DNA from: Streptomyces sp. PCS3-D2 | GTDB lineage: Bacteria; Actinomycetota; Actinomycetes; Streptomycetales; Streptomycetaceae | Assembly (NCBI RefSeq): GCF_000612545.2 | Contig: NZ_CP097800.1 | Coordinates: 4,786,501 to 4,850,500 of the forward strand | DNA length: 64,000 nt | Reading direction: 5' to 3' | In this document: piece by piece, positions 5,690 through 46,005 of the stretch | Layout of the letters: every line of letters begins with the position of its first letter | Numbering within the stretch: the first letter of the stretch is position 1 | Notes under the pieces: generated by a model | Told to the model about the DNA's origin: nothing | The model's database searches: none | What the model saw: the letters and a program-made list of their open reading frames with translations, nothing else | Program-made: the position numbers and the translations under genes

Positions 5690-5773
5690 CCCGGGCCCCG
5701 CCGTTGTCGGTGGACCCGGTTACCATCGACCGAGGACGGTGCAGTTCACGGATGTGACGAGGGGGAGGTTCGC

Positions 5774-22678: not shown

Positions 22679-22685
22679 CCGTCTG

Positions 22686-41787: not shown

Positions 41788-43137
41788 CTACGGCCGCCAG
41801 GACACCCGGTGCTCCGCCAGGTGCGCCAGGACGGAGTGGTTGGCCTCCCAGCCGTCCGGGAACTTCATCGTCACGCCCAGCTGCACCGGCTCGGTCGACG
41901 GATGGTCGTCCAGCAGCTCCGCTATGCCCGCCCGGGCCACCACCACGCAGGCGTGCCGGTGTCGGGAGGCCAGCACGCACAGCCGGCCCGTCTCCAGATG
42001 GAAGGCGGTCGCGTCCGGGCGCCCCGACAGCGGGTGCAGCACCACGGTGAGGTCGTACTCGCGGCCCTGCAGCCGGTTCGCCGTGTCCACCGTGACCCCG
42101 CCGACCCCGAGGGCGGCCAGCGCCGCACGAACCGCCGCCGCCTGGTCGCGGTGTGCCGTACCGACCGCGATCCGGTCGGCCGTCAGCGGCACCGGCCCCG
42201 CGGACTGCTCGTCGGAGGTCACCGCCCCGCGGTCCAGGACCCGGCGCACCACCCGGGCCACCGCGCCGACCGCCTCCGGATCGGTGCGCGGCGTGTGCCG
42301 CGCCGGCAGCTCCAGCAGGCCCCAGCCCGCCTCGGCGGCCTCGTCCAGCACCCGGTCCGGGCCCGACCCGTCCGAGGGCACCCCGTACGAGAGCTTCCGA
42401 TCGCCCGGCCCCGTACCGCTGCGGAACTGCGTGTACGGGTAGAAGGCGCGCGAGACCAGCGGCGCCGCCGTCGCCGGGAGCCGCCAGGACACCGGCAGCC
42501 GGTGCTGCGGCAGCTGCGGGTTGTGCGCGAGCAGCGTGCTCACCGCAGACGCCGACGGGTCGTAGGACAGCCCCGCCCACTGCTCCGCACCCACCACGCT
42601 GAACGGGTCCAGCTGCCCCGGGTCGCCCACGAACAGCGCCCGCTCGAACAGCCCGGCCACGGCCAGCAGAGCGTCGGAGCGCATCTGGTACGCCTCGTCG
42701 ACGATCGCGTGCTGCCACGGCTCGACGTCCTTCACGAACGCCCACTTCGCGGCCGTGGAGAGGGTGATCGGCAGTTCCGCGAGGTCCCCCGGCCTGGCCG
42801 AGAGGGTCACCGACGGCAGCTCCCGCAGCGCCGGGTCGTAGGAGTCGCCCTCGCTGCTGTGCAGCCGGCCGACCTTCAACTCCGGGTCCTTCTCGGCCAG
42901 CCGCAGCACCAGGTCGTCGACCTGCGCGTTCGTCTGCGCCACCACCATCAGCCGGCGGCCGGCCGCGGCCAGCTCCCGGGACGCCCGGACGACGAGCGTG
43001 GACTTCCCGGCGCCGGGCGGGGAGTCGACCACGACACCCTGCTCGGTCCCGTGCAGGGTGTCGTGCAGGATCGCGGCGGTCGCCCGGGCGGCCGCCGCAC
43101 CCGGATCGAAGGCGGCGGGCGCGGACACGGGAGTCAC
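41788..43137 (-). CDS. SF1 helicase (UPF1/Dna2-like), third gene of nuclease-helicase unit
   Basis: The 449-residue product is an SF1B-type helicase. Motif I is DSPPGAGKSTLV (about residues 38-49), motif Ia lies near VVAQTNAQVDDL, Walker B/motif II is AIVDEAYQ (about 144-151), and motif III is FVGDPGQLDP. Motif V is DTANRLQGREYDLTVV, and a motif VI-like stretch is LASRHRHACVVVAR. It ends about 50 residues later, so it is a compact helicase without an extra nuclease domain. It overlaps the preceding gene by four bases (GTGA). With the nuclease at 44711 and the unknown protein at 43134 it forms an operon resembling a split Dna2/AddAB-like machine. Confidence 0.87.
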   Translation of the reverse strand: MTPVSAPAAFDPGAAAARATAAILHDTLHGTEQGVVVDSPPGAGKSTLVVRASRELAAAGRRLMVVAQTNAQVDDLVLRLAEKDPELKVGRLHSSEGDSYDPALRELPSVTLSARPGDLAELPITLSTAAKWAFVKDVEPWQHAIVDEAYQMRSDALLAVAGLFERALFVGDPGQLDPFSVVGAEQWAGLSYDPSASAVSTLLAHNPQLPQHRLPVSWRLPATAAPLVSRAFYPYTQFRSGTGPGDRKLSYGVPSDGSGPDRVLDEAAEAGWGLLELPARHTPRTDPEAVGAVARVVRRVLDRGAVTSDEQSAGPVPLTADRIAVGTAHRDQAAAVRAALAALGVGGVTVDTANRLQGREYDLTVVLHPLSGRPDATAFHLETGRLCVLASRHRHACVVVARAGIAELLDDHPSTEPVQLGVTMKFPDGWEANHSVLAHLAEHRVSWRP

Positions 43138-44723
43138 AGGATGTCCTCCTCGGTGACGGCGTCGGGCAGGTGGAGGGCGGCCCCGGACCCCGGCGGACCA
43201 CCGTGGGTCCACGGCGTCCGCTCCGGGTCCGGGAGCTTCGGGCCGCCGCGCGCGTCGTGCTCGAAGAGCGTCCAGCACACGCGGTCCCCCTCCTCCGGTA
43301 CGGAACCCGGCTCCGGGTCCCGGCCGCGTCCCATCTTGTCGAGGAGCCGCAGCACCACCTGCCCGTCCTCCTCGAAACGGACGAACCGCGCGCTCTGCGA
43401 CCGTCCGTCCCCGTCCAGCACGCGGTACACCGTCGCACCGCCGCCGTCCGCGAGCTGCGGCCGGTCCTGCGAGGACACCGTCACCAGCGGCCGCGGACTG
43501 GGCCGCTTCGACTCCGTCCACTCCATCACGACCTCGGTGACCTCGCCCTCGAAGGCCTCGCCCGCAAGCCGCCGGCCCGCCATGACCAGGGGGTCGTCCA
43601 GCGCCTCCTGAGCGTCCAGCCGCACCTGCTCGGTCTCCCGCGTGGCCAGCTTCTGGGCCGCCGTCACCGCGTCGTCGCGGCGCGGCTGCGGCGGCTCGCC
43701 GGCCCGTACGCGGTCCCGGTGGCCGGTGTACGACCAGCGGTCGCGCGTCCAGCGCTCCTCCGCCCGCTCGCCCGGCGGCAGGGCGCGGGCCAGGCCGATC
43801 GCGGTCCAGGTGGCCCGCCAGGTGCTCGACATCTGCTCCACGACCAGCCGACGCACCGCGCGCTCGGCCTCGCGCACCGCGCGGTCGTCCTCCCCGGGCC
43901 CGGCCGCCAGGGCCGCGCGCGCCGCGTCGTAGCGGGCGATGGCCGGCGCGAGCAGCTTGTTGTCGAAGGCCGGGTCGGTGGCCGGACCGGCCGGCGGGCA
44001 CAGCAACTGCCCGTGCCCGTCGCGGCCCAGCTCGGCGCGCAGGGCCGCCTCGGCACCCGACCCGCCCGCGGGCGGGTCGATCCAGGCCAGGAGTGCGCCC
44101 AGGTGCTGGTCCTCCAGATTGCTCTGGCCCGTCGCCCAGTGCCGGGACAGCAGGTCCGTCGCCGACAGCAGCATCGAGGATCCGGGCACTCGGGCCCGCT
44201 CGCCCAGGTGCGTGAACCAGCGCCCCAGCAGCGGCACCCGCGACGGCGCCGGATGGGGATGGTCCGGATCCTCCTCGGCGGTGCGCCTGAAGCGCATCGA
44301 CCGCCCGAGCAGCCGCACGTACTCGATGCCCGCCCGGCTCGGCACGATCAGCTGCGGGGCGTCCACGCACAGCTCGGTCTCGACCTTCACCCGCTTGCCC
44401 GTCTCCGGGTCGGTCTCGCTCCGCTCGGCCGGCTCCACGTCGTCGGCGTACGCCTCGATGTGCGCCAGCACGTGGACCGCGAGGTCCGCGAGGAACGCCC
44501 AGCGCAGGTCCCGGTCGCGGGGCTGGGGTATCACGAAGACCCGCGGCTCGTCCGGATCGGTGCCGACCATCGCGCCCAGCGGCGCTCCGGCCTCGCCGGC
44601 CGTGGTCAGCGGCACGAAGACCAACGGCTTGTCGCTCAGGTGGCGGTGGCGCACGGTCGCGAGCGGCTGCGCGCGGCCGGCGCGGACGGCCTCCAGCCGG
44701 GCCAGGGTGCTCAGCAGGGGCAT
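43134..44723 (-). CDS. Unrecognised 529-aa protein between nuclease and helicase
   Basis: No family is recognised. The protein has an N-terminal region with repeated beta-strand-like segments (LVFVPLTTAGEAGAPLGAMVG, RVFVIPQPRDRDLRWAFLADLAVHVLAHIEAY), a helical Arg/Ala-rich centre (about 230-380), and a C-terminal beta-rich part (VVMEWTESKRP to DRVCWTLFEHD). It has no signal peptide or membrane helix. It starts inside the nuclease gene (13-base overlap) and ends overlapping the helicase start, so it is coupled to both. A role as a nucleic-acid-binding or regulatory subunit of the nuclease-helicase unit is inferred from context only. Confidence 0.72.
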   Translation of the reverse strand: MPLLSTLARLEAVRAGRAQPLATVRHRHLSDKPLVFVPLTTAGEAGAPLGAMVGTDPDEPRVFVIPQPRDRDLRWAFLADLAVHVLAHIEAYADDVEPAERSETDPETGKRVKVETELCVDAPQLIVPSRAGIEYVRLLGRSMRFRRTAEEDPDHPHPAPSRVPLLGRWFTHLGERARVPGSSMLLSATDLLSRHWATGQSNLEDQHLGALLAWIDPPAGGSGAEAALRAELGRDGHGQLLCPPAGPATDPAFDNKLLAPAIARYDAARAALAAGPGEDDRAVREAERAVRRLVVEQMSSTWRATWTAIGLARALPPGERAEERWTRDRWSYTGHRDRVRAGEPPQPRRDDAVTAAQKLATRETEQVRLDAQEALDDPLVMAGRRLAGEAFEGEVTEVVMEWTESKRPSPRPLVTVSSQDRPQLADGGGATVYRVLDGDGRSQSARFVRFEEDGQVVLRLLDKMGRGRDPEPGSVPEEGDRVCWTLFEHDARGGPKLPDPERTPWTHGGPPGSGAALHLPDAVTEEDIL

Positions 44724-45880
44724 TCCGGGCTCTCCGGGACGTGCGGGCGGGGCAGGGCGGCGGCCCGTTCCAGCGCCTCGGCGCGCAGCGTGGCCGCGCG
44801 GTGCAGGGCGGCGGCGGTGGGGTCCTCGGTGCAGCCGGCGCCGGCGGCGGCCGCAAGGGCCTCCTCGACGGTGGTCAGCGCGCCCAGCTCGCCCCGTACG
44901 GAACGGCCCAGGGCCGTCACCTCGCCGGCGGCGCGGGCCCGCTCCCGGCAGTGGAACGCCAGCTCGCAGGCGGCCAGGCACTCGGGCGCGTAGGCGGCGT
45001 CCACCGCGGACACCGCCTCGGCCAGCTCCTCGGCGGGCCGCTCCGGGTCGAAACTGAGCCCCTCGGGCAGTGCGGCGGCCAGCTCGTCGACCCGGGTCAG
45101 CCGGTCCAGCTGGCGGCGGGTCACGGAGCGCTCGCGGCGGATGTCGACGGGAGCGGCGGTGGGCAGGTTGGAGAAGTCCTTCGGGCAGACCAGCAGCACG
45201 CTGTGGCCGACCTCGGCACCGGCCAGCTTCCCGGCGATCCGCTCCAGGGCCAGGACGTAGACGGCGGCCTGGCGGGCCGCCGCGCCCACCTTCGCGGCGT
45301 CCGCGGCCGCGTCGATCATCGGGAACGACTTGATCTCCACCACGGTCCAGCGGCCGTCGGGGTGCACCACGACGGCGTCCGGCTCCAGGTATGCCGGGGT
45401 GCCGGCCACCTCCAGGGCCAGCATCGGGTGGTCCAGCAGGGTCCAGTCCTTCGCCGAGGTGGCCTCGCGCAGGGCCAGGGCGGTCCGGGCGGCGCGGCCC
45501 TCGGGCCCGGCGGCCGTCAGGTCGGGGACGAGGGCGCCGGCGCCGGGAGGCTCGGCGGACGCGTCCAGGTGCGCGTGCACCAGCCGCAGCAGCTCGGCCC
45601 CGCCGTCCCCCTTGACCTTCGCCTCGAAGGAGTTGCCGCGGATGATGGCGAACTGCGACTGGCCGAAGGCGGCGGGCGAGCCCAGGGCCGTGGCGAGGGC
45701 GTTCTTGTCCACGCCGGCGCCGTCGAGCAGGGCGCGTCTGCCGCAGCCGGGGTTGGCGGCGAGGGCCGCGAGCGCCCGGGCGTCGAGCGGGCGGGGTGGT
45801 ACGGCGGGGCCTCGCAGGCCGGCGAGCCGCTGCCGCAGCGTGGTCGGCTGCGCGGGGCTGCTGGGCGGGTAGGAGCTCAC
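44711..45880 (-). CDS. RecB/Cas4-like PD-(D/E)XK nuclease with putative Fe-S cysteines
   Basis: The 389-residue product shows the PD-(D/E)XK core: GNSFEAKV (about 82-89), EPDAVVV (Asp168), VEIKS (Glu182, Lys184) and the RecB-family Q-x-x-x-Y motif (QAAVY, Gln204 and Tyr208). One upstream cysteine (Cys46) and a C-terminal trio (Cys301, Cys305, Cys311 in CLAACELAFHC) match the arrangement that holds a 4Fe-4S cluster in Cas4, AddB and Dna2. It is the first gene of a unit with an unrecognised protein and an SF1 helicase, so it probably cuts DNA in a helicase-coupled process. There is no CRISPR array nearby. Confidence 0.8.
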   Translation of the reverse strand: MSSYPPSSPAQPTTLRQRLAGLRGPAVPPRPLDARALAALAANPGCGRRALLDGAGVDKNALATALGSPAAFGQSQFAIIRGNSFEAKVKGDGGAELLRLVHAHLDASAEPPGAGALVPDLTAAGPEGRAARTALALREATSAKDWTLLDHPMLALEVAGTPAYLEPDAVVVHPDGRWTVVEIKSFPMIDAAADAAKVGAAARQAAVYVLALERIAGKLAGAEVGHSVLLVCPKDFSNLPTAAPVDIRRERSVTRRQLDRLTRVDELAAALPEGLSFDPERPAEELAEAVSAVDAAYAPECLAACELAFHCRERARAAGEVTALGRSVRGELGALTTVEEALAAAAGAGCTEDPTAAALHRAATLRAEALERAAALPRPHVPESPECPC

Positions 45881-46005
45881 CGCGGAAGTCTCCCATCCGC
45901 CACTGACAATCGTGTGCGGAGCCGGGAAAAGGGCCGGTGGGAGAGCAGGTCGGGGGCGTGATGGATGATGGACGGACGAGGAAACGCACCGACCGGGAGA
46001 TTCTC

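Follow-up and report, generated by a model that had tools for sequence, protein, structure and literature searches.

Several described systems resemble the genes studied here. In Bad of Geobacillus, a protein of 1245 amino acids (aa), an iron-staple nuclease is followed by a central domain that has no known relatives and by a superfamily 1B (SF1B) helicase (PMC7430649). In eukaryotic DNA2, the nuclease also precedes the helicase. AddAB and AdnAB are helicase-nucleases for DNA ends, with a UvrD-like helicase and, according to the same source (PMC7430649), iron-staple cysteines in AddB; PMC5869714 presents AdnAB as the principal helicase-nuclease of Streptomyces. We analyzed a stretch of 64,000 nucleotides from Streptomyces sp. 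PCS3-D2 (contig NZ_CP097800.1, positions 4,786,501 to 4,850,500), hereafter the window. It contains three overlapping genes, named here the trio, in the order nuclease, middle protein of no known family and helicase, which equals the order in Bad and DNA2. On balance, we favor the view that the trio encodes a three-subunit DNA2/Bad-like end-processing machine, which would be a core repair set in Streptomyces and is linked to SbcCD and Wadjet in four-gene relatives. The features of the locus are as follows (window coordinates).

44711..45880, minus strand: nuclease gene, 389 aa, GTG start; iron-staple-type (Cas4/AddB/DNA2-like) PD-(D/E)XK nuclease, from the open reading frame (ORF) and motifs
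43134..44723, minus strand: middle gene, 529 aa, ATG start; no known family
41788..43137, minus strand: helicase gene, 449 aa, GTG start; compact SF1B helicase (UPF1/DNA2-like), from the ORF, Pfam and motifs
44711..44723, minus strand: nuclease/middle overlap of 13 bases, from the ORF calls
43134..43137, minus strand: middle/helicase overlap of 4 bases, from the ORF calls
45887..45909, minus strand: RecA-NDp-like promoter box TTGTCAGTG-N8-GAGACT, 6 bases ahead of the nuclease GTG

An earlier note on this DNA, made from its letters, had described three minus-strand genes at 41788-45880 with these two overlaps, and its coordinates were reproduced. The nuclease residues that it listed were also found in place, namely D168, E182, K184 and four cysteines (Cys46, 301, 305 and 311), together with a QxxxY motif that corresponds to Q204-Y208. 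Conservation was followed in an alignment of 96 rows, comprising 94 further loci (three of them from a single strain) plus two copies of the window protein, after removal of a row of 294 aa. C46 was kept in all 96 rows and C301, C305 and C311 in 95 rows each. The catalytic residues displayed similar behavior (E182 and K184, 94/96 each; D168, 92/96; Q204 and Y208, 95/96 each), and all nine residues were kept in each of 40 additional Streptomyces core copies, a selection among the 142 genomes that contain the middle gene. The earlier note had made its proposal depend on conservation of the motifs in orthologues, and they are nearly invariant. Since the nuclease residues are kept across the aligned loci, the trio is a genuine gene set and not a group of chance ORFs.

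The profile alignment of the nuclease with 18 Cas4-like sequences gave a score of 31.5, compared to a maximum of 20.6 for 20 column shuffles. With default settings, D168, E182/K184 and Q204/Y208 were in register with the Cas4 residues, and a more permissive alignment brought C301, C305 and C311 into register too. The trio nuclease displays the feature expected of a DNA2/Bad-family nuclease, four spanning cysteines with D, E-x-K and QxxxY, and is predicted to carry an iron-sulfur cluster. Pfam Cas_Cas4 matched neither the nuclease nor any other protein of its own genome, in searches that did not extend to CRISPR arrays. When the nuclease profile was run against the PDB, two designed repeat proteins ranked first, no stretch passing on its own, and no relative of the nuclease was confirmed in viral contigs.

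The helicase contains the Walker A lysine K45, DE at 147-148, Q175, Q357 and R392; of 90 copies compared, 89 or all 90 retain each of eight key residues. It matches Pfam AAA_11 and AAA_12 above cut-off, with no UvrD model among its Pfam matches, and in this respect differs from the helicase of AddAB and AdnAB. The SF1B UPF1/DNA2-like helicase expected of the DNA2/Bad family is thus present. The best solved relative is DNA2 (E 2.7e-8); this match, the cysteine pattern of the nuclease and the gene order support the Dna2 likeness that had been proposed at the outset. No DNA2-specific Pfam model matches any trio protein at E up to 1; the DNA2 Rift-barrel model (PF21123) gave no match anywhere, 14 control genomes included, and is therefore uninformative here. 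In phage records, tblastn found no helicase relative at E 1e-5. The trio differs from eukaryotic DNA2 in being made of three chains, including a middle subunit, and from Bad, a single chain of 1245 aa, in being encoded by three genes. Because nuclease and helicase are not one polypeptide, the trio is described here as probably working like DNA2, and is not classed as a member of the DNA2/Bad family.

Searches of Pfam, NCBIfam, PADLOC and PHROGs with E up to 1 returned no match for the middle protein, for which the earlier note knew no family, and neither did a PDB profile search. In position it corresponds to the central domain of Bad. However it is paired, this protein seems to stay with the helicase. 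Indeed, a profile of 49 middle relatives aligned with a profile of four plasmid proteins (hhalign 95%, E 1.8e-8), which directly precede the same type of helicase on Rhodococcus, Mycolicibacterium, Xylanimonas and Euzebya plasmids. These four loci were taken from 48 plasmid records with a helicase match. In three of them a VWA gene stands upstream in the place of the nuclease, two also having an annotated MoxR or AAA ATPase, and on the Euzebya plasmid this place is taken by a cytosine methyltransferase gene. Because plasmids pair them with other upstream genes, the middle protein and the helicase look like a constant pair. Weak matches to TOBE (3), KOW (1), ProQ C-terminal (1) and RimP SH3 (1) models occur among these 49 relatives; unrelated models match too, and one scores better (DUF3458_C, 2 members, E 4.4e-4). 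Given the weak TOBE, KOW, ProQ and RimP SH3 matches, and given that the helicase Walker A starts near residue 40, the middle protein would probably supply the small barrel domain of DNA2/UPF1-type helicases.

The distribution of the trio was assayed in a draw of 296 genomes from the phylum, including nine Streptomyces with the window's own genome. Matches were obtained for the nuclease in 15 genomes, for the middle protein in 13 and for the helicase in 41, many of the latter being weak matches to other SF1 helicases. All three genes were present, and adjacent, in 9/9 Streptomyces. In a larger draw from the genus, the middle gene was found in 142 out of 150 Streptomyces. Six of the eight remaining genomes lack all three genes (five of these six being at least 98% complete), and the other two are fragmented assemblies with pieces of them. 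Co-occurrence in other genomes, on which the first proposal had also been made to depend, is accompanied by co-loss. The neighboring genes are mostly common to the window and eight other core loci, and seven core Streptomyces rows form a single clade in a FastTree tree of 84 loci having all three genes at the usual length. The window copy is a genus-wide core set, most likely vertically inherited in Streptomyces.

For the box ahead of the nuclease gene, the chance expectation with up to one mismatch is 0.05 per window, and the same search detected one other site in the window, at 5704. The strict box is present in 8/9 of the first core loci (L071 has one change) and in 25/40 further Streptomyces genomes. 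A relaxed form, chosen after inspection of these loci, is found in 48/49 core loci, with the GTG located 7 bases downstream in 47 and 6 bases downstream in one. On both strands of the window and eight core loci (448,000 bases), the relaxed box occurs 8 times, which is the number of those loci with a box before the trio. We take it to be of the RecA-NDp (PafBC) type; the defining element, a TTGTCAGTG box at fixed spacing to a -10 element, is found before the trio. According to PMC9411070, RecA-NDp elements belong to actinobacterial damage genes, S. coelicolor SCO6735 among them, and PMC6789036 presents them as the motif used by PafBC in mycobacteria. Searching the genome for TTGTCAGTG-N9-AG-N2-T gave 10 matches, and none with the reversed control. 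The five matches with TAG at -10 precede recA, ruvC and genes for uracil-glycosylase (UDG), a WGR protein and a DUF4132 protein. Judged by its letters, the trio box is a conserved relative of this damage box and an imperfect copy; it is considered only a relative because the first T of the -10 element is absent. The trio mRNA is probably leaderless, and the trio would be induced by DNA damage.

A second group of loci came from a tblastn search of a plasmid collection, in which three records displayed the trio with an extra fourth gene (gene 4) in front. On two Streptomyces plasmids, the trio directly precedes Jet genes A to D, the genes of Wadjet (JetABCD); on the Nonomuraea plasmid record, no SbcCD or Jet match was found. 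An alignment of gene 4 was then used to scan 84,980 species genomes. This yielded 338 relatives, the best 80 of which were analyzed with up to 10 kb inspected per side; this selection is biased towards the first sequence, which was Wadjet-linked. The nuclease and middle genes were found in 80/80 loci and the helicase in 76/80, several loci being cut by contig ends. SbcC or SbcD (Mre11-Rad50-like) was detected in 52 of the 80 loci, upstream in most of them and downstream in L131, L132, L138, L141, L144 and L153. The SbcD proteins of three modules share 28-30% identity with the SbcD of the window genome.

Wadjet genes accompany 40 of the 80 gene-4 loci (type I, 18; type II, 11; type III, 11), as typed with PADLOC and Pfam on representatives, plus plasmid annotation. 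They were present in 40/52 SbcCD-positive loci versus 0/28 SbcCD-negative loci, several of the latter being cut by contig ends. L093-L095 are one strain; when counted once, Wadjet is found in 38/78 and SbcCD in 50/78. The Wadjet call of L117 is one weak match of 79 bits. The 80 loci belong to eight named families (two are unassigned and one contig is labelled Melainabacteria), and Wadjet occurs in seven. On the 84-locus tree, the Wadjet loci switch type at least 14 times, whereas the presence of Wadjet changes 6 times and that of SbcCD 5 times; the type I and III labels cluster beyond shuffled labels, and type II hardly does (62/500 shuffles as low). Because the type changes this often, the Wadjet link of the gene-4 relatives looks functional. 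Within the genus, gene 4 was found in 14/150 Streptomyces, with the trio in 14/14, SbcCD in 10/14 and Wadjet in 6/14, a further match of 46 bits (L225) not being counted. Wadjet was again present in 6/10 SbcCD-positive versus 0/4 SbcCD-negative genomes, at least 5 of the 14 being strains also found among the 80 and two having supplied sequences of the search alignment. Wadjet of types I-III is thus a recurrent neighbor of gene-4 relatives; the trio itself has no Jet likeness, since at E up to 1 no Jet model matched any of its proteins. PMC10586767 describes how Wadjet cuts circular DNA and Rad50 complexes sense ends, and the passages covered do not mention a joint module. No report of a module joining the trio, SbcCD and Wadjet was found in the literature covered, partly as excerpts, subscription papers and most preprints lying outside this scope.

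The gene-4 modules display an upstream region of their own. TGGA direct repeats with a 10-base period precede gene 4 in 60 of the 79 loci with a readable upstream sequence, and are found in 3 of 4534 control stretches; they are perhaps the operator of a shared regulator. The RecA-NDp box gave one match before gene 4 among the 80 loci (L164), an artefact in a locus where the start of gene 4 is off the contig. The four SbcCD-less Streptomyces copies (L217-L220) share a second PD-(D/E)XK protein, and in the L076 copy of this protein cysteines 302, 522, 525 and 531 look iron-staple-like. One copy lies near a pPIWI-RE gene. Genomes G343 and G417 carry gene-4 modules in both ends of the chromosome contig, about 24 kb from the tips, and in G383 the module is 4.7 kb from a contig end.

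Processing of DNA ends is the most likely function of the trio. Starting at a broken end, the helicase would move along single-stranded DNA, linked by the middle subunit to the iron-staple nuclease, which would cut the strand; formation of such a complex, its activity and its polarity are predicted from the genes. In Streptomyces, the trio would be expressed from its RecA-NDp-type DNA-damage promoter and serve repair. The four-gene relatives of Actinomycetota would have gained a dedicated SbcCD (Mre11-Rad50) pair, stand beside Wadjet and, if a hand-over takes place, may destroy the linear DNA left by the Wadjet cut. A more specific version, in which SbcC, SbcD, gene 4, nuclease, middle protein and helicase form a six-gene clean-up machine exchangeable between Wadjet I, II and III, the Streptomyces trio being its damage-induced housekeeping relative, is put forward tentatively, at somewhat less than even chances.

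Several observations weigh against the end-processing reading as a whole or against parts of it. The match of Pfam PDDEXK_1 to the window nuclease is weak (E 0.008) and under cut-off, and of 47 nuclease relatives, 7 match this model at E up to 0.1, with 7.7e-4 as the best value. The hhalign probability for the nuclease versus the Cas4-like profile is low (18%). D168 is lost in three Planotetraspora copies, and the trio nuclease of L217-L220 displays E182L and K184R with the cysteines kept; in these loci, the nuclease activity seems to have moved to the neighboring protein. In G204, a genome outside the genus (L073 and L074), some 36 kb separate the helicase gene and the nuclease and middle genes, a split that could be an insertion or a rearrangement. 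For the promoter, the first -10 T is replaced by C, G or A in the 25 strict boxes and by G in the window. The five genome matches with another base at this T are the trio and four sites without a recognized repair gene: no ORF was found at L202 and no convincing one at L208, L204 has no family and L206 is YunG/hydrolase-like. The mycobacterial PafBC motif is moreover reported as not conserved in S. venezuelae (PMC9380542). Finally, neither SbcCD nor Wadjet of types I-III was matched in the window or in eight other core loci, and gene 4 has no match in the window genome, whose single SbcD over the family cut-off is encoded 1.7 Mb from the trio. The window copy is therefore not a six-gene module, having no gene 4, SbcCD or Jet genes adjoining it.

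The earlier note had guessed at a DNA-repair or anti-phage machine, and both halves of this guess appear to be supported, from different branches: repair by the RecA-NDp-like box before the trio, with the reservation of its -10 element, and defence by SbcCD and Wadjet beside the four-gene relatives, but by neither in the core loci. One could extend the defence half to all copies, Streptomyces core included; the trio would then degrade incoming linear or linearised DNA, and its promoter would sense the single-stranded DNA of an invasion. The Wadjet genes in half of the gene-4 loci (40/80), the copy near a pPIWI-RE gene and the N6/N4 methylase gene in the neighborhood of a distant trio (L078) would fit. 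However, we consider this unlikely, since the core copies lie in conserved synteny without SbcCD or Wadjet matches (window and eight core loci), form one clade and share their box type with recA, ruvC and UDG. That same damage-type box would suit the opposite case of pure housekeeping break repair, with the Wadjet link reduced to co-residence of mobile genes in islands or at chromosome ends. Some module copies are indeed near linear ends, where Wadjet is also enriched (PMC10482375), and the 80 loci were selected by likeness to a Wadjet-linked query. Yet co-residence hardly accounts for three Wadjet types and 14 or more switches between them on the tree, or for the restriction of Wadjet to SbcCD-positive loci (40/52 versus 0/28; genus draw, 6/10 versus 0/4), which makes this explanation less probable still.

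The helicase might also act on RNA, as UPF1 does, and the set would then be an RNA surveillance or Mokosh-like system. We give this very little credence: the PADLOC models MkoA and MkoC do match the helicase (E 5.8e-10 and 8.5e-8), but their best stretches cover just 69 and 83 residues, and the nuclease and middle proteins have no PADLOC match at E up to 1, so that no further Mokosh part is found among the trio. Moreover, the DNA partners of the relatives, SbcCD and Wadjet, point to DNA. The DNA2/Bad-like end-processing machine is thus retained as the preferred reading.

Other features of the region were also considered. In six of eight core loci, a gene lies between a phosphatase gene and the nuclease gene; it was examined as a fourth subunit and rejected, being PAP2-phosphatase-like (a likeness read from the sequence, with no family search) and not clustering with gene 4. 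In other loci, the reading frame of this gene covers the promoter box. At 45881-45936 of the window the PAP2-like gene is absent and the box is retained, as it is, with one change, in L071, where the gene is not called either. The methylase gene near the distant trio L078 (G165) is paralleled in Geobacilli, where Bad adjoins a type III-like methylase gene (PMC7430649). Three tRNA-Lys (CTT) genes lie in a 17-kb part of the window, at 22685, 29235 and 39211, and are possibly marks of integrated elements.

To our knowledge, the fate of plasmid DNA cut by Wadjet has not been explained. A neighbor that recurs beside Wadjet and combines end binding (SbcCD) with unwinding and cutting is a direct candidate for processing this DNA after the cut. 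If this is true, the system would parallel, in bacteria, MRN-DNA2 end resection, with DNA2-like parts encoded separately. Streptomyces, for its part, would possess, besides AdnAB, a second helicase-nuclease with a damage-type promoter box.

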